A stretch of DNA of 34,423 nucleotides from an uncultured Bacilli bacterium (GTDB taxonomy: Bacteria > Bacillota_I > Bacilli_A > RF39 > UBA660), in assembly GCA_949439935.1 (NCBI GenBank), contig CASRZA010000007.1, positions 1 to 34,423 of the forward strand. Reading direction: 5' to 3'. The position numbers were made by a program, and so were the translations under genes. Every line of letters begins with the position of its first letter. Positions within the stretch are counted from its first letter, which is position 1. The notes under the pieces are model-generated. The model saw nothing but the letters and a program-made list of their open reading frames with translations, searched no databases and was not told the origin of the DNA. This document shows positions 5,668 through 34,423 of the stretch, piece after piece.

Positions 5668-6282
5668 TTTATCATCTTCATCAGACGTTGAATCTAAAAT
5701 AGTAACTTTTTCTATTATTGGCTGCTTTTCTTTTGCAACTAAACCAGTAAGCTGATTTTCTGGTGTGACGTTTTCAGCTATGTCATCTACTACGTCCATA
5801 CCGTCTGTCACATGACCAAAAGCGGCATAATCGCCATCTAAAGATAAAGCATCTTTATGCACGATGAAGAATTGACTGGATGCACTGTTCATATCATCCT
5901 GTCTTCTTGCCATCGAGATGACTCCTCTCACATGAGATATATTATTTTCGACCCCGTTTTCTTTAAACTCTCCTTTAATAGGATTTTCTGATCCACCTGT
6001 TGTATCAAATTTAGGATCTCCACCTTGTATCATAAAGTTTTTAACGATTCTATGAAAGGTCAATCCATCGTAGAAGCCATCGTTCGCTAAATTTACGAAG
6101 TTTGTAACCGTTATAGGCGCAACGTCAGCATCTAATTCGAGTTTTATTACTCCCATATCTTTAACCTTTATTTCAGCATTAATTTTTCCTGTCAAAAGAT
6201 TTTCCTCCTTCTCTTTACCACATCCACATAGGGCAAAAGTTGCACAAATTAAAATAGTTAAAACTAATAATTTCTTTCTCAT
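5665..6282 (-). CDS. Lipoprotein cyclophilin-type peptidyl-prolyl isomerase
   Basis: The enzyme catalyses cis-trans isomerisation of prolyl bonds and here probably helps fold exported proteins. The N-terminus is a lipoprotein signal: MRKK, a hydrophobic stretch, then LCG-C with Cys21 as the likely lipidated residue. The cyclophilin domain fills residues 36-195 and contains FHRIVKNFMIQGGDP with the catalytic Arg, SASSQFFI and the FGHV segment. At 205 residues it is typical of Gram-positive lipoprotein cyclophilins. It has its own promoter (6316-6344) and terminator, so it is a single-gene unit. Confidence 0.94.
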   Translation of the reverse strand: MRKKLLVLTILICATFALCGCGKEKEENLLTGKINAEIKVKDMGVIKLELDADVAPITVTNFVNLANDGFYDGLTFHRIVKNFMIQGGDPKFDTTGGSENPIKGEFKENGVENNISHVRGVISMARRQDDMNSASSQFFIVHKDALSLDGDYAAFGHVTDGMDVVDDIAENVTPENQLTGLVAKEKQPIIEKVTILDSTSDEDDK

Positions 6283-9955: not shown

Positions 9956-11076
9956 CACTCTGCTAAGTTCTGAAAATAATCAATTATTGCGTCGACTATT
10001 CTCTTGCTTGCAAATCCATCCCCATAAGGATTAGCAGAGTTGCTCATTCTATCATAATCCTCTTTAGATGTTAATAAATTTTTGATCTCCGTATAAACCT
10101 TTTCTTCGTCGGTCCCAACAAGCCTTAAAGTTCCAGCTTCGATCCCCTCTGGTCTTTCAGTAGTATCTCTTAAAACTAAAACTGGTTTACCTAAACTAGG
10201 AGCTTCCTCTTGTATACCTCCACTGTCTGTCAAAATTAAATGAGCTTTATTTATAAAATTATGAAAATCTAAGACATCTAAGGGTTCTATTAATTTAACC
10301 CTCTCGCATTCAGAAAATATTTCATTAGCAATCTCTCTAACTTTCGGATTCAAATGGACTGGATATATTACTTTCACTTCTTCAAATTCTTCGATTATTC
10401 GCTTAATAGCTCTAAATATGTTATACATCGGATCACCGAGATTTTCTCTTCTATGTGCCGTCAATAGTATCAACTTTTCATCATTATTAATCCAGTTCAA
10501 TACTTCATGAGAAAAATCTTCTTTGACAGTTTTGCTCATCGCATCAATAACGGTATTCCCCGTCACGAAAATTTTGGTTACAGGAATGTTTTCCTTTAAG
10601 AGATTCTCTTTACTCGCTTCAGTAGGAGCAAAGTAAAGATCCGTCATCCTATCGATAATTTGTCTATTCATCTCTTCTGGAAATGGAGAGTATTTGTCCC
10701 AAGTTCTCAAGCCCGCTTCTACGTGCCCAATCGCAATTCTATTATAAAAAGCTGCTAAAGCTCCCACAAAGGCAGTAGTTGTATCTCCATGGACTAGAAC
10801 GATGTCTGGTCGAGTCTTTTGTAGGATATCTTCTATCCCTTGCAATGCTCTCACTGTAATCTCACTAAGTGTTTGTCCATTTTTCATAATATTTAAATCA
10901 TAATCTGGAACGATTTCAAAAACGCTCAGTACTTGATCTAACATTTCCCTATGTTGAGCAGTTACACATACTAAACATTCAACATTGTCTCTTCCTTTCA
11001 TTTCTTTTACCAAAGGTGCCATTTTTATAGCCTCTGGACGCGTCCCAAAAATACTTAATATTTTAATTTTACGCAT
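9955..11076 (-). CDS. wecB: UDP-N-acetylglucosamine 2-epimerase (non-hydrolysing)
   Basis: The enzyme interconverts UDP-GlcNAc and UDP-ManNAc, the donor for teichoic-acid linkage units and many capsules. From the ATG at 11076 it has 373 residues, standard length. Motifs are FGTRPEAIKMAP at the N-terminus, VHGDTTTAF, IGHVEAGLRTWDKYSPFPEEMNRQ, TAHRRENLG and TDSGGIQEEAPSLGKPVLVLRDTTERPEG. A first ATG at 11085 is also in frame, but the spacing to AGAAG favours 11076. It overlaps the end of the upstream membrane protein gene by 8 bp, indicating translational coupling. Confidence 0.97.
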   Translation of the reverse strand: MRKIKILSIFGTRPEAIKMAPLVKEMKGRDNVECLVCVTAQHREMLDQVLSVFEIVPDYDLNIMKNGQTLSEITVRALQGIEDILQKTRPDIVLVHGDTTTAFVGALAAFYNRIAIGHVEAGLRTWDKYSPFPEEMNRQIIDRMTDLYFAPTEASKENLLKENIPVTKIFVTGNTVIDAMSKTVKEDFSHEVLNWINNDEKLILLTAHRRENLGDPMYNIFRAIKRIIEEFEEVKVIYPVHLNPKVREIANEIFSECERVKLIEPLDVLDFHNFINKAHLILTDSGGIQEEAPSLGKPVLVLRDTTERPEGIEAGTLRLVGTDEEKVYTEIKNLLTSKEDYDRMSNSANPYGDGFASKRIVDAIIDYFQNLAE

Positions 11077-28544: not shown

Positions 28545-31500
28545 TTATTTGGACTTTTTAATAATAAATACCACTACTATTGACAAACTTAATGTTGCTG
28601 TAATGACTAATAATACTAGTTTAGTTGTTTTTTTCGCTTGTTCCTCTTCATCCGTTAAATTGTTATTATCTTCTTTGCTTGAATTATCAATATTAGGTTT
28701 TTGTTCCTCATTATCTGTTCCATTATTATCTGGCAATTGTTCTTCATTATCGTCAGGTTTCACTGTAGTCTCATTGTCATCTTCATCGTCATTATTAGTA
28801 CTATTGTTTGAACCGCTGTTATTACCATTATTACCGTTATTGCCGTTATCATTAGGCTTATTCGGTTTCTCAGGTTTGCTTACTCCAGGAGTACTTGGTT
28901 TATTGTCGCCTGGATTCTCCGGTTCAACTGGTTTATTGTCGCCTGGATTCTCCGGTTCAACTGGTTTGTTGTCGCCTGGATTCTCCGGTTCAACTGGTTT
29001 GTTGTCGTCCGGATTCTCCGGTTCAACTGGTTTGTTGTCATCCGGATTCTCTGGGTCAACTGGTTTATTAACATCATCTTTATCTTCTTCAAACGAATCT
29101 ATTTTTGCAATTAATTTTCCAACATTGCCGACCGAATCATAGAATTCTATTTCATACTCACCATTTTTAGTATATTCGTAAATTCCATTTCCTTCTTTAA
29201 ACGTAATTTCTTTACTAGGGTTTACTACAGTTACAATTACTTTATCGTCATGAATTTCATATTTCAACTCAGCAGTTGGAACAGTCTTGTCTATCCAGTC
29301 AACTTTTGCAATTATAGTTCCCATATTTCCAGCAGCGTCTTGGAATTCAAATATAAATTCGCCATTTTCAGTAAACACATGATCTGTCTTTCCGCCATTG
29401 TTTGTTACAGTTACATTTTCTTCATTAAAGGACACCCTTGCAGTAACATCTTTATTAGTCGATGTTCCTATATCGTATTCCACTGTTGCTTCCGGCGTTA
29501 CTGTATCAATCCAATCGACCTTAGCCGTTGCCGTACCCTTATTTCCCGCTGTATCCACAAACTCAAAAGTGAAAACACCATTAGAAAGGAACTCATAAGT
29601 AAATGGATTAATATTTGTAATATAATTTCCATCGCTGTCCCAAACGTCACCATTTTCGTCTGCTTTTAAACCAGGAATCATAATACCGTCGATATTATAA
29701 ATATTTCCTTCCTCATCAACAGTATAACTTCCATTATTTGTTACAGTAACTTTTTCACTCGGTTTCAATGTGGCAATTACAGATTGATTAGTAGCAGAGC
29801 GAGTAGAAAATTCAAACGTAGCAGTCGGAGCCTCTCTATCGATCCAATCGACTTTAGCTACTGCCGATCCCTCTAGACCCGTTTCCTTATCGATAAATCT
29901 AAATATATGTTCGCCGTTTTCTGTAAACGTATGTGTGTCTCCACCTTCACTTATTATTTCAAAGTTAGATGAAGTAATATTTAAAAGCCTTGCTACGACA
30001 TCTTGATTAGTTGGGTCAGTAGTGCTATATCCTATTCCTGCAGTCGGTCTTGGATTTTTTGTTATATCTTGGAAGATATTAAACGCTCTAGCAGCAAACC
30101 AATTTCCATTAGTTCTATCTGCTACAATTTTAACGTATTGAACCTCCCTCGGATTATCTATTTCAAATTTTTGAGTGAGATTGACGGCTTGTTCATTAGA
30201 ATTTGCCTGTGAAGAATAAGTTAAACCTTTTCTCTGTGATAATATTTCCCAATTCTTACCATCCGTACTTCCCCAAATAGTTCCATCGTTGATTCTACCA
30301 TTTCCTCCGCTTGCTGGAACGAATTCCACAGCTGAAACAAATCTCGGTTTATCTAATTTTATTGTGATAAATCTTTCTGTATCGCTTCCGTCCCATGCAC
30401 TATGCCATCTAGTATTATAGTTTCCATCGATTGCAAAGCTAGCAGAACCAGCGTTATTTGTTGCCTGAGTAGATACATCTTCTATAGATAGGTGAGATAC
30501 AGCTACATATTTTCTTGTATCAGGTTGATTGTCTGGCGTAAATGTATAAGTTACCGAATTCGTTGCTAATTGTGTGCCAGTTGCACCTCTTCTAACATGT
30601 AGAGTTTTATCTCCCGTATTATCTGGAGAAGCAATTCGATATGATGTCCAAGAATCGCTTTCGCTATTGCGCCATTCGTAAGTTAAATCTATACCAACGA
30701 CTCTGTTTTCTAAATCATTCGCATATAAATTACTACTTAATGAACCTTCCGTGATATCTATAGTATATCTATAGTCTGTTAATCCCATAAATTTAAAGAT
30801 TATATCATTTTCAGAGGTAATTTTAGCTAATTCCTCTTGTGTGAGTTCAAGAGAATCGTCCATTACAAATTCTGTAAAAGTAGTTCCCCCATCTAAACTG
30901 TAGGCCCAAGCAAGTTGATACAGTGGATTCTTGATAATTTTATTAGCATTTTCACCATCAAATGAGAACGTCATCGGGTCAGGTTGAGCTTTATTCAATA
31001 ATTGTCTTGCATGAGTTCTAACTGCATCTACTTGAATTGTCTCGTTTGAAGTTGCAGCAGAAGCCTTCTCTAACGCTTCCTTTTCTAGTCTATCGATGTG
31101 TAATTTCTCACTGCCATCTAAATAAGGTCTGATAACCTTAAGCAAGTCGAACATTGCGACAGGATGATACGCATAAGCTTTAATTATTCTATTCGCCAAA
31201 GCATACCAATCGCTCGAAGTAATCGTTCCGCCTTCATTTTTAACACTCATCTTTTTATAAAGATTGATGATGTAATCATAAGTGTCCAAATTGATATCGT
31301 TGACTTCTAAAGATTTAAAATATGTTTCTAATTTCTTATTATCATCTGTATAAGAATTCGCAGATAGATTTAAATACAACGATTTTTTATAATCTTCGTA
31401 TCTATTTAAGTTCGCTTGTGCTAAATATAGATATCCGGTACTTGATGCGCCCTTATTGCCACTGATGTGTTTATCAGTAAAATATTTATTATTCCAGTTA

Positions 31501-33146
31501 AACATATAACGTACAGGAATTGCTCCACCCCAGGTACTTCCAGCGCCACCCCAGTTACCATATCTTGGTGACCAGTATCCATTGCCATTCGCATCTTGAT
31601 AATAACTGATATACAGCTCATGTCCTACTTGATAAGCTCCTGTTGCAGGAACACCATTGACACGATACATACTTTGCCCTACACGAGAAGCATTCCAGCA
31701 GATACCACCATTAGCAAATACCATCCAATATCTAGGTATCTTCTGGCCATTTATCAAGCCATACGGAACACCATATTTACTTAAATAAAATTGATTATCA
31801 TATTTTTCCCTGTTTTCCTCAGCATAAAACTTATCTTGCTTATATTGTGGAGATACATAATCTATCATATAGAAACTTATGCTCTGCTTTTCGTGTGTAA
31901 ATCCATTAAGCCAAATGAGGTCACCATTACTCGTTCCATCTTGCATAACCATGCGCATCAACTCTACGTGATAATCTTTAAACCAGTTATTATCGATGAA
32001 TTCACCTTGTAAACCGTTTGTCTTAACTATTTTCAATTCATTATTATCGAATAGATTTTTCATTATACCAAAGCGCTCTAAATAGTCGTACGAAGGAGAA
32101 GGAAAATCAAAGTTGAGTGGAGATATAATTTTATCTGTAGAATATCCCGCAGCCAAAGCGATAGCCATTTTTTCATAGACATATCCATTTTCTGAATTCA
32201 TTTCATTTTGGTATTTATGATAAATATCAGAAATAACAGTTATGAATTTTGTAATATTTGCAATCTCACCAACTTCGATGACTTCCTCTACTCTTCTATT
32301 ATCGCTTAAAATCCAATCCATAGTTTCAGCAAATTTATTATCTATGTCTGCTAGATATTGGACATTCCAATAACCTAATTTATTTACTAATTCCCTTTCA
32401 AGAATGAGTCTATAATTATTGTTATAATTGTCTTCTGAACTATTAGATCTTAAAATATTGTCATAATAATCCAATTTTTGAATTTTATTGTAATTTCCTA
32501 CATCGTCAAACTCAAAATCTTTTGTAACTAAGCGTGCATCTGCTATAGTACCATGGTCAGCAGCGTTTGAGCCATTTGGATCGACATAAATACAAAGATA
32601 TTTATATCCTGTAACATCTAAATCGACCTCAAGAGATTCGCTTGTACCGGTCATGACATCAGTTCTATCGATCAATTTATCCCAAGTTTTTCCGTCGCGC
32701 GAAGCAGCAATTCTAAACCAAATGCTACCATTCGTTCCTCTTGCCGCATCGACGCCGAGTCTTGCAGTAAACCTTGGAAACTTTGTTGAATATTCAGATA
32801 TATCAAAAGTTACTTGTCCTTTTGCATGAACACCAAGACCCTTTGCGAATAATCTTTTTTCTCCATTTACTATAAGACTTAAAATTCCACCATCCTGGTT
32901 TTTATCCTTTTGAATTTCATGACCAGCCCAACCATTATAAGACCAGTTGTTCTCTGTAATATAATCTAGGTCAGATAAATAGTGATATCCCTTTGTTAAA
33001 TCTGTATTTGCAAGCAACTTTTTGGTCTCTACTTCGTTTGTTGCTTCTCGATAAACATTTTTGGGATATAATATACCTGCTGCTAAAGATATACTTACTA
33101 TTCCAACTAATAAATAACTATATTTCTTTTTCTTATTATTACGCAT
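28545..33146 (-). CDS. Large multidomain surface protein (NPCBM, Cys-His core, F5/8C, Ig-like repeats)
   Basis: About 1533 residues from ATG 33146 (AAGGGTGG ribosome site; numbers below count from an ATG three codons earlier). Order: signal peptide (12-32); NPCBM-type carbohydrate-binding module (about 51-212, with GLGVHAKG and YLCIYVDP); a central region with GGICWNASRVGQSMYRVNGVPA and VGHELYISYYQDANGNGYW, whose Cys486, His512 and Asp521 could form a papain/transglutaminase-like triad; F5/8 type C domain (about 880-1030); four Ig-like repeats marked by AKVDWID; Pro-Glu-Asn repeats; an Asn/Asp-rich linker; a C-terminal helix and KKSK. No LPxTG, so it is probably held by the helix. A host-glycan-binding adhesin or enzyme is inferred. 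Confidence 0.85.
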   Translation of the reverse strand: MRNNKKKKYSYLLVGIVSISLAAGILYPKNVYREATNEVETKKLLANTDLTKGYHYLSDLDYITENNWSYNGWAGHEIQKDKNQDGGILSLIVNGEKRLFAKGLGVHAKGQVTFDISEYSTKFPRFTARLGVDAARGTNGSIWFRIAASRDGKTWDKLIDRTDVMTGTSESLEVDLDVTGYKYLCIYVDPNGSNAADHGTIADARLVTKDFEFDDVGNYNKIQKLDYYDNILRSNSSEDNYNNNYRLILERELVNKLGYWNVQYLADIDNKFAETMDWILSDNRRVEEVIEVGEIANITKFITVISDIYHKYQNEMNSENGYVYEKMAIALAAGYSTDKIISPLNFDFPSPSYDYLERFGIMKNLFDNNELKIVKTNGLQGEFIDNNWFKDYHVELMRMVMQDGTSNGDLIWLNGFTHEKQSISFYMIDYVSPQYKQDKFYAEENREKYDNQFYLSKYGVPYGLINGQKIPRYWMVFANGGICWNASRVGQSMYRVNGVPATGAYQVGHELYISYYQDANGNGYWSPRYGNWGGAGSTWGGAIPVRYMFNWNNKYFTDKHISGNKGASSTGYLYLAQANLNRYEDYKKSLYLNLSANSYTDDNKKLETYFKSLEVNDINLDTYDYIINLYKKMSVKNEGGTITSSDWYALANRIIKAYAYHPVAMFDLLKVIRPYLDGSEKLHIDRLEKEALEKASAATSNETIQVDAVRTHARQLLNKAQPDPMTFSFDGENANKIIKNPLYQLAWAYSLDGGTTFTEFVMDDSLELTQEELAKITSENDIIFKFMGLTDYRYTIDITEGSLSSNLYANDLENRVVGIDLTYEWRNSESDSWTSYRIASPDNTGDKTLHVRRGATGTQLATNSVTYTFTPDNQPDTRKYVAVSHLSIEDVSTQATNNAGSASFAIDGNYNTRWHSAWDGSDTERFITIKLDKPRFVSAVEFVPASGGNGRINDGTIWGSTDGKNWEILSQRKGLTYSSQANSNEQAVNLTQKFEIDNPREVQYVKIVADRTNGNWFAARAFNIFQDITKNPRPTAGIGYSTTDPTNQDVVARLLNITSSNFEIISEGGDTHTFTENGEHIFRFIDKETGLEGSAVAKVDWIDREAPTATFEFSTRSATNQSVIATLKPSEKVTVTNNGSYTVDEEGNIYNIDGIMIPGLKADENGDVWDSDGNYITNINPFTYEFLSNGVFTFEFVDTAGNKGTATAKVDWIDTVTPEATVEYDIGTSTNKDVTARVSFNEENVTVTNNGGKTDHVFTENGEFIFEFQDAAGNMGTIIAKVDWIDKTVPTAELKYEIHDDKVIVTVVNPSKEITFKEGNGIYEYTKNGEYEIEFYDSVGNVGKLIAKIDSFEEDKDDVNKPVDPENPDDNKPVEPENPDDNKPVEPENPGDNKPVEPENPGDNKPVEPENPGDNKPSTPGVSKPEKPNKPNDNGNNGNNGNNSGSNNSTNNDDEDDNETTVKPDDNEEQLPDNNGTDNEEQKPNIDNSSKEDNNNLTDEEEQAKKTTKLVLLVITATLSLSIVVVFIIKKSK
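28909..29073. repeat. 33-bp tandem repeat, five copies, inside the surface protein gene
   Basis: The units encode the 11-residue repeat PVEPENPGDNK (with D or G variants) that forms the stalk before the membrane anchor. The three copies nearest the C-terminus are almost identical in DNA, so slippage could change the copy number and stalk length. Confidence 0.9.
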
Positions 33147-33215
33147 AATAATCATCCACCCTTTTTTATTATCATTTATAATAGTACAAACTTTCTTCTT
33201 ACAAGTTCTAAAAAT

Positions 33216-33361: not shown

Positions 33362-33844
33362 TTATATTCTTCCTCGTATAATCAATCTTATAGAAATTAT
33401 TAATCTATTTGATTTATCCTTTATTATTAAATCTAACCAAATTCTAGTACTCCTGCCATGCCCTCACGAAATGGCATTAGGTATTATTTTAAAAAAGTAG
33501 CTATTACCATTACTCTCTAAAAAGGGATGGGCAATATTCATCTTTACATATTTGTCAATAATTTCATCAAAAGATGATTCGCTCATCAGTTCAATTTTGT
33601 TTAACATATCCTCCAAATATAAAGAGTTTGCAAATCTAAAATTTCCTTTTGAAATATTTTCTTTTCTAATATTACCTGCAAAATTGTATAGATCCTTAAA
33701 TAAATATTTATGAATCTGTTGTAACCCTTTTATAGTACCTATTTCGATATTATCAATTTCATGATTGATGAATAACATTTTCGCATTTTCTAAACTTTTA
33801 ACATCTAAATCATCCGTTAAGATCACTCCAATATAAAAGCCCAA
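33362..33844 (-). pseudogene. Broken Fic-domain gene
   Basis: Residues from ENAKMLF onward match the N-terminal half of short Fic proteins ([31 protein letters not shown]). Fic enzymes AMPylate target proteins using an HPFxxGNGR loop. Here the frame reaches [14 protein letters not shown], with Gly and Arg of the motif replaced, and stops at 33464. Overlapping the stop in another frame, a second motif PFREG-(A)NGRSTRIWLDL appears at 33432-33474, needing one extra base to read through; it then runs to a stop at 33362. No good start codon exists upstream either, since the frame begins at TTG next to a terminator. It cannot make an active Fic enzyme. Confidence 0.82.
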
Positions 33845-33860
33845 AACATCGCTTGGGCTT
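33833..33860 (-). terminator. Terminator following the tRNA-Trp fragment
   Basis: Perfect 8-bp stem AAGCCCAA / TTGGGCTT with an 8-base loop, then TTATAT on the minus strand. Its place 10 bases after the tRNA 3' end is that of a native tRNA terminator, so this side is probably original chromosome. Confidence 0.7.
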
Positions 33861-33870
33861 GAAATTCTAA

Positions 33871-33919
33871 TGGCAGGGGATAAGTGAGTCGAACACTTGA
33901 CCTCGGTTTTGGAGACCGA
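33871..33919 (-). tRNA. 3' half of a tRNA-Trp gene (anticodon CCA), non-functional; likely att site
   Basis: The minus strand reads the anticodon arm CGGTCTCCAAAACCG, a variable loop, the T arm AAGTG-TTCGACT-CACTT, acceptor strand ATCCCCT, discriminator G and encoded CCA. The matching 5' acceptor strand AGGGGAT is absent; the DNA on that side is AT-rich. Only the 3' 49 bases are tRNA. Such 3' tRNA fragments are typical of the far junction of elements integrated at a tRNA gene. The bases TTAGTT and AATAT just 5' weakly resemble a D arm, so a decayed whole tRNA is an alternative. Confidence 0.82.
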
Positions 33920-33920
33920 T

Positions 33921-34340
33921 ATTATATCAATTTAACTAATTTTAATCAAGATTGTACGAAGTAAAAATCAATTAAAATTAGTTAAAAATAATTAACTTAA
34001 ATCAAAAATAATTAAAACTTTTTTTAGCACCTTGGTACAATTTCTCGTACAATTTTTGTGTTTTTAACTCTAATTATAAGTTTGAATTGTTGAAATTTCC
34101 TATACATAAAGGGTTTTACATACATAGAAGTCAGACTCCCATTTGGTGTTTTGGAGTATTTCGTACAATTTTAATTTTGATTGTCTTTAATCAATTTTTA
34201 TTACAACAAAATTAATTGATTGTTACTTTTTTAATTCAATATCAATCAAATTTAATCACAATTAACTAATTTGTATATAAATGGTACAATTTTAATTATA
34301 TTCTTAAAAATAATGTACCAATTTCTAAAAAACTTTCAGT
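33921..34340. repeat. AT-rich repeat field beside the tRNA-Trp fragment
   Basis: No gene is visible in 33921-34423. The stretch contains a perfect 16-bp inverted repeat TTTAACTAATTTTAAT (33931-33946 and, reversed, 33971-33986), echoed near 34262, and five copies of (C/G)GTACAAT at about 33951 (reverse), 34034, 34046, 34162 and 34283, plus a GTACCAATT at 34314. The spacing and mixed orientation resemble arm-type binding sites for an integrase or excisionase at the end of an integrated element. Confidence 0.55.
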
Positions 34341-34368
34341 GAGAGATTAATTTAGCTCAATTGCAAAA

Positions 34369-34408
34369 GTAAATTCCACTTTGAAGAGGTAAATTCCACG
34401 GAGAAGTG
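34369..34408. repeat. 20-bp direct repeat, two copies, at the right edge
   Basis: GTAAATTCCAC-N3-GAAG occurs at 34369 and 34389. Repeats of this look (AAATTCCACTTTGAAG) are found at the ends of some IS21-family insertion sequences, which carry multiple terminal repeats. The element itself would be beyond the window, so this is only a possibility. Confidence 0.4.
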
Positions 34409-34423
34409 TATTTTTCAAGAAAA

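Follow-up and report, generated by a model that had tools for sequence, protein, structure and literature searches.

A decayed element-borne tRNA-Trp gene suggests tRNA-dependent integration by two stacked elements

Near the end of a contig from an uncultured Bacilli bacterium we found a partial tRNA-Trp gene which, from comparison with related genomes, is best read as the wreck of a spare, element-borne and once complete tRNA-Trp gene. We consider it quite likely that the locus reflects tRNA-dependent integration at tRNA-Trp, with two stacked elements (E1 and E2) and decay of the copy that E1 carried. The true recombination core is most plausibly the 8-bp CTCCAAAA at 34149-34156, with an arm of E2 to its right and the arm, promoter and decayed tRNA-Trp of E1 to its left. 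The window, meaning the whole stretch of 34,423 nucleotides that was analysed, is contig C7 of genome G000 (1.43 Mb, 109 contigs, 91% complete) and ends at 34423. Its relevant features are listed here, L040 being the homologous locus in genome G200.

28545..33155, minus strand: NPCBM / F5-8 type C surface protein gene, belonging to the native chromosome on the downstream side of tRNA-Trp (DNA 81% identical to the gene that follows the intact tRNA-Trp in G008 and G168)
33372..33422, no strand: IS-associated remnant of 51 bp, close to the fic pseudogene and 94% identical to sequence that neighbours an IS110-type transposase in G002 (L036)
33419..33844, minus strand: fic pseudogene (Fic/DOC family), putative E1 cargo (Pfam Fic, 2e-6; 69% identity to the L040 fic; HPFxEGNGR region broken)
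33835..33861, minus strand: terminator-like hairpin, then a T run (AAGCCCAA..TTTTGGGCTTTT; also in L040 with a changed loop)
33871..33940, minus strand: decayed tRNA-Trp (CCA) gene assigned to the older element E1, with D-arm remnant, anticodon arm, T arm, 3′ acceptor strand and CCA (Rfam; 50-bp deletion relative to L040)
33921..33949, minus strand: promoter-like TTGATT-17-TATAAT, presumed to have driven the E1 tRNA-Trp, its −10 box now fused to the D-arm/anticodon arm (sequence and L040 alignment)
33950..34148, minus strand: putative P′ arm of E1, 76-78% identical to the arms of L040, C16 and G126; GTACAA occurs in it three times as an arm-type repeat (33952, 34035 and 34047); repeat excess against shuffles
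34149..34156, minus strand: recombination core CTCCAAAA, 8 bp, in the tRNA-Trp anticodon loop; L040 homology begins and homology of C16 to G002/G008 ends here
34157..34354, minus strand: putative P arm (right end) of E2, the second element, with arm repeats starting at 34163 and 34284; 34289-34354 100% identical to G008 5986-6051, which adjoins a DUF3800 module also on C16
34355..34423, no strand: insertion sequence end that interrupts the contig, flanked by the 13-bp direct repeat TAAATTAATCTCT; C16, C85 and other genomes have the same terminal repeat

On the minus strand, positions 33920-33871 read ATCGGTCTCCAAAACCGAGGTCAAGTGTTCGACTCACTTATCCCCTGCCA and comprise the anticodon arm (CCA anticodon), the T arm, the 3′ acceptor strand and CCA. 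The Rfam tRNA model scored this fragment at 40.6 bits (E 7e-7), above the gathering score. The original prediction had described it as a perfect 3′ half of tRNA-Trp without its 5′ half, followed by a terminator at 33833-33860. The 3′ part and the hairpin (approximately 33835-33861) are indeed present, but the covariance model alignment covers model positions 6-65 and includes the D-arm TTAGTTAAATTGATATAATA, reaching 33940; only the 5′ acceptor strand and the true start are missing. Compared to the intact L040 homologue, the window gene lacks 50 bp, namely the promoter/start region and the 5′ acceptor strand. This gap falls between two near-identical 20-bp repeats, TTAGTTAAATTGATATAATAT of the promoter and TTAGTTAAATGGTATAATAT of the D-arm, and the half gene therefore appears to have arisen by a short-repeat deletion. 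As a side observation, the TATAAT −10 box (33921-33926) now lies a few bases upstream of the 3′ part of the tRNA, and a 3′-half tRNA transcript could form.

An exact 47-nt string of the fragment was found in one other genome contig, CAMNSE010000022.1 of an 'uncultured Mycoplasma sp.' (G200). There, L040 contains a leftward cell-wall hydrolase gene, a tRNA-Trp 5′ half (AGGGGCGTGGTATAATGGTAGCATAGGAGT directly followed by CTCCAAAA), an arm with TTGTAC repeats, a promoter, a complete tRNA-Trp, a terminator and fic. The window is 76% identical to L040 over 706 bp, starting exactly at CTCCAAAA. In G000 itself, contig C16 carries a hydrolase gene, a host 5′ half (AGGGGTG..GGAGT followed by CTCCAAAA), an arm that is 76% identical to the window arm, and an intron-split tRNA-Trp. 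The homology of C16 to the intact tRNA-Trp locus in each of two congeners, G002 and G008, extends through CTCCAAAA and stops at its last base. Since the L040 homology starts and the C16 homology ends at the same 8 bp, both breakpoints coincide with CTCCAAAA in the anticodon loop. The junction is thus not at 33920, where it had been predicted, but 229 bp further to the right. The expectation that an element targeting tRNA-Trp extends to the right of the fragment held, with the E2 arm lying right of the core. Beyond 34156 the sequence continues as an AT-rich arm with further GTACAA repeats and without a tRNA 5′ half. In total, GTACAA/TTGTAC occurs five times in 430 bp, compared to a mean of 0.38 in shuffled sequences and at least five in 0 of 2000 shuffles.

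The stems of the tRNA halves were compared as well. The host 5′ half on C16 forms 5/7 acceptor pairs and 2/5 anticodon-stem pairs with the 3′ half in the window, whereas its pairing with the G002 host 3′ half is complete (7/7 and 5/5). The window 3′ half, on the other hand, fits perfectly (7/7 and 5/5) to the 5′ half of the G200 element tRNA. Element tRNAs pair with themselves (7/7 acceptor, 5/5 anticodon) and do not pair with the host half in G200 and G000. Stem pairing is uninformative in G064, where the host half pairs equally well with that of the element, and in G126, where host and element tRNA are the same.

These data bear on classical tRNA-site integration, in which the 50 bases would be a displaced 3′ half (attR) next to the original downstream DNA, as originally predicted, with a rebuilt intact tRNA-Trp at the other end of the element, to the right. 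A 3′ half with CCA and a terminator, with element DNA on its 5′ side, would fit. However, the D-arm and promoter of the same gene sit upstream, the stems of the fragment do not match those of the C16 host 5′ half, the core is 229 bp away, and the L040 alignment with its 50-bp deletion contradicts this reading. The intact tRNA-Trp with the same 3′ bases that the original prediction expected nearby was not seen either, an outcome named in that prediction as refuting it: ARAGORN called no intact tRNA in the window, and neither a second copy of the 3′ sequence nor an intact tRNA-Trp with it was present elsewhere in the 91%-complete assembly, of which none of the 29 tRNA hits is another uninterrupted tRNA-Trp. 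The absence of tRNA-Trp by itself says little, because several other isotypes are likewise absent from this fragmented assembly. Taken together, we regard classical integration as very unlikely.

The ends of related elements were found in several genomes. In G200, the left end on C22 reads host 5′ half, CTCCAAAA, arm, promoter, complete tRNA-Trp and fic, and the right end on C5 reads element, CTCCAAAA and host 3′ half (element, then CTCCAAAACTTTTGATGGGAG..CCCCTGCCA). When joined, the two host halves are exactly the intact tRNA-Trp gene of the congeners G008 and G005, and the tRNA is rebuilt at neither attL nor attR. The left-end layout of L040 recurs on C16 of G000 and in G126, G064 and G061, the latter three having the host 5′ half and then a complete tRNA-Trp within 300 bp. 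Complete element-borne tRNA-Trp genes are thus present in L040, G126, G064 and G061, that on C16 being intron-split. In G126, attL and attR are 8 kb apart on one contig; in G185, the sequence at the expected place of attL reads N. A 290-bp unit between two anticodon loops was discarded as the element, because the host 3′ half turned out to lie far from there in G126 and G200.

At its right end, the G200 element encodes a tyrosine recombinase of 458 aa (PHROG integrase, 4e-41) that ends 237 bp before the core; a small HTH-like protein is encoded ahead of it. G185 and G147 have homologues of this recombinase (71% and 61%) and G126 retains a remnant, each situated in front of CTCCAAA and a tRNA-Trp 3′ half, so that an integrase lies beside attR in three genomes and its remnant in a fourth. 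The predicted integrase is therefore found at the tRNA-Trp 3′ half in relatives, but none of this family was found in the G000 assembly, which counts against the tandem model; the integrases on C8, C34 and C44 of G000 belong to other families. The host 3′ half was likewise not found in the G000 assembly. The cargo of G185 includes a tail/lysis PHROG match. Viral contigs yielded neither the exact 3′ half nor a relative of the integrase, and phage records matched only to Fic and to unrelated phage tRNA-Trp. Two further arrangements were noted. In L091 (G181, 10052-10153, minus strand), a tRNA-Trp 5′ half precedes an intact tRNA-Trp with the same sequence by 101 bp, and arm repeats are missing. 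L145 (G005) harbours a second, possibly phage-borne tRNA-Trp of a different type directly after another tRNA gene.

The gene order in G008 is ychF, hydrolase, intact tRNA-Trp, DUF3800, orf166 and NPCBM gene. C16 shares 1437 bp of the DUF3800 module with G008 at 99.2% identity, the adjoining 66 bp in G008 match window 34354-34289 at every position, and the G008 NPCBM gene corresponds to that of the window (81%). Furthermore, C16 and the window (34355-34423) break off inside opposite ends of the same kind of insertion sequence, whose flanking 13-bp direct repeat is single in G008. Based on this synteny, the 100% overlap of 66 bp and the shared insertion sequence end, we placed C16 and the window as neighbours: C16 would adjoin the window through one insertion sequence copy, with E2 between C16:2077 and window 34156. 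Two observations count against the stacked-element model: C16 and the window are separate contigs, and in G008 the DUF3800 module directly follows the CCA of an intact host-type tRNA-Trp, an arrangement that the proposed history of E2 does not account for. The DUF3800 and orf166 module (G008 L155 4562-5998; C16 L071) is 99.2% identical between two species with flanks that are 67-76% identical, which points to a recent horizontal exchange between them.

Ends or remnants of insertion sequences flank the region (33372-33422 and 34355-34423) and would also agree with an arm-core-arm attP fragment that was carried into the chromosome by insertion sequences, with no tandem junction. This is about as unlikely as classical integration, as the NPCBM gene and the DUF3800 module occur in the same order beside tRNA-Trp in G008, which indicates a native tRNA-Trp locus. 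In a third and similarly unlikely reading, the remnant would be an old host tRNA-Trp turned pseudogene without involvement of any element: in G168 an intact tRNA-Trp that is 93% similar precedes the same NPCBM gene, but the host tRNA-Trp of the congeners is of another type (AGGGGYG..), G000 has its own host 5′ half of this other type on C16, and the upstream arms and core match element ends.

The position of fic is less uniform. The gene lies on the element side in G200 and beside an intron-bearing tRNA in G155, which makes its assignment as a host gene doubtful, but it follows a plain tRNA-Trp in G098, which counts against the stacked-element model.

The tRNA-Trp on C16, the only complete one found in the G000 assembly, contains a 263-nt intron (L071, 1535-1800, minus strand) placed exactly before the anticodon-loop core CTCCAAA, and its spliced form folds. 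Intron homologues of 88-90% identity were found in the tRNA-Trp of G155 (L163, then fic) and G081 (L164), and a related stretch lies within another gene in G081 (L168). In keeping with group I rules, the 5′ exon GUCGGU can pair with an internal GCCGAC (P1) and the last base of the intron is G in three genomes; the Rfam Intron_gpI score of 14.9 bits is below the gathering score of 50. The idea that the intron confers absolute self-immunity is weakened by G081, in which the intron-bearing tRNA is itself broken right after CTCCAAAACC.

For the stacked-element reading, we propose that a tyrosine integrase of elements in this bacterial family recombines at the 7-8 bp anticodon-loop CTCCAAA(A) of the host tRNA-Trp. 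As this core is too short to rebuild the tRNA gene, integration would split it, leaving the 5′ half at attL and the 3′ half at attR. The element would keep the host alive by bringing a complete tRNA-Trp with its own promoter just inside the left end. In G000, the newer E2 (DUF3800 cargo and the intron-containing tRNA-Trp on C16) would have integrated at the core remaining from the older E1 (fic cargo). With tRNA-Trp supplied by E2, the E1 copy would have become redundant and lost its 5′ end by the short-repeat deletion. We infer this order of insertion and also that the host 3′ half and the right end of E1 were lost. The replacement tRNA-Trp on C16 is presumably essential to its host. A pattern search found a single intact host tRNA-Trp in each of G002, G007 and G008, which fits with, but does not prove, a need for the element tRNA in integrants. 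We put forward only tentatively, and consider rather unlikely, a wider scenario: small, partly integrase-less cassettes (tRNA-Trp and one or two genes, e.g. Fic or DUF3800) would move by tRNA-dependent integration, stack at the only tRNA-Trp of the host and make it dependent on an element-borne, self-splicing tRNA-Trp, whose intron exactly at the recombination core would shield the replacement from becoming a target.

A comparable process is known as tRNA-dependent lysogeny (Guerrero-Bustamante and Hatfull 2024, PMC10865867), in which the integrase acts on a core of ~10 bp inside a tRNA gene, integration does not restore this gene, and a phage-borne tRNA of the same isotype is required for lysogens. 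The elements described here share the integrase at a host tRNA site, the short core without tRNA rebuilding and the complete element tRNA of the same isotype. They differ in using tRNA-Trp, whereas the phages in Table 2 of that study use tRNA-Lys, tRNA-Ile2 and tRNA-Leu, all in Actinobacteria, and in coming from uncultured Mycoplasma-like MAGs, known from sequence alone. In addition, the replacement gene and the integrase are at opposite ends of the element, the former by the att arm, elements appear to be stacked in tandem, some replacement genes contain an intron and some copies have no integrase. In vTRX32-1-like prophages of Rhizobium leguminosarum (PMC8631192), a complete phage tRNA replaces the host tRNA-Leu, which contains a 12-bp core; the phage tRNA lacks the core, which was proposed to block super-integration. 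In contrast, the replacement here keeps CTCCAAA, and stacking appears to have taken place. With classical tRNA-targeting islands and prophages (Islander, PMC4383910), the elements described here share the tRNA target, the tyrosine integrase and a displaced fragment at one end, whereas a regenerated target that shares a long 3′ core is absent here and the gene is broken instead of restored.

The mechanism appears to have been described so far mainly in phages of Actinobacteria and rhizobia. Our findings would extend tRNA-dependent integration to another bacterial lineage, to the isotype tRNA-Trp, to stacked elements and to intron-bearing replacement genes. The leftovers resemble classical attR half-sites and may mislead the annotation of island boundaries. 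For the host, this would be a case in which the copy of a mobile element takes over for an essential tRNA gene.
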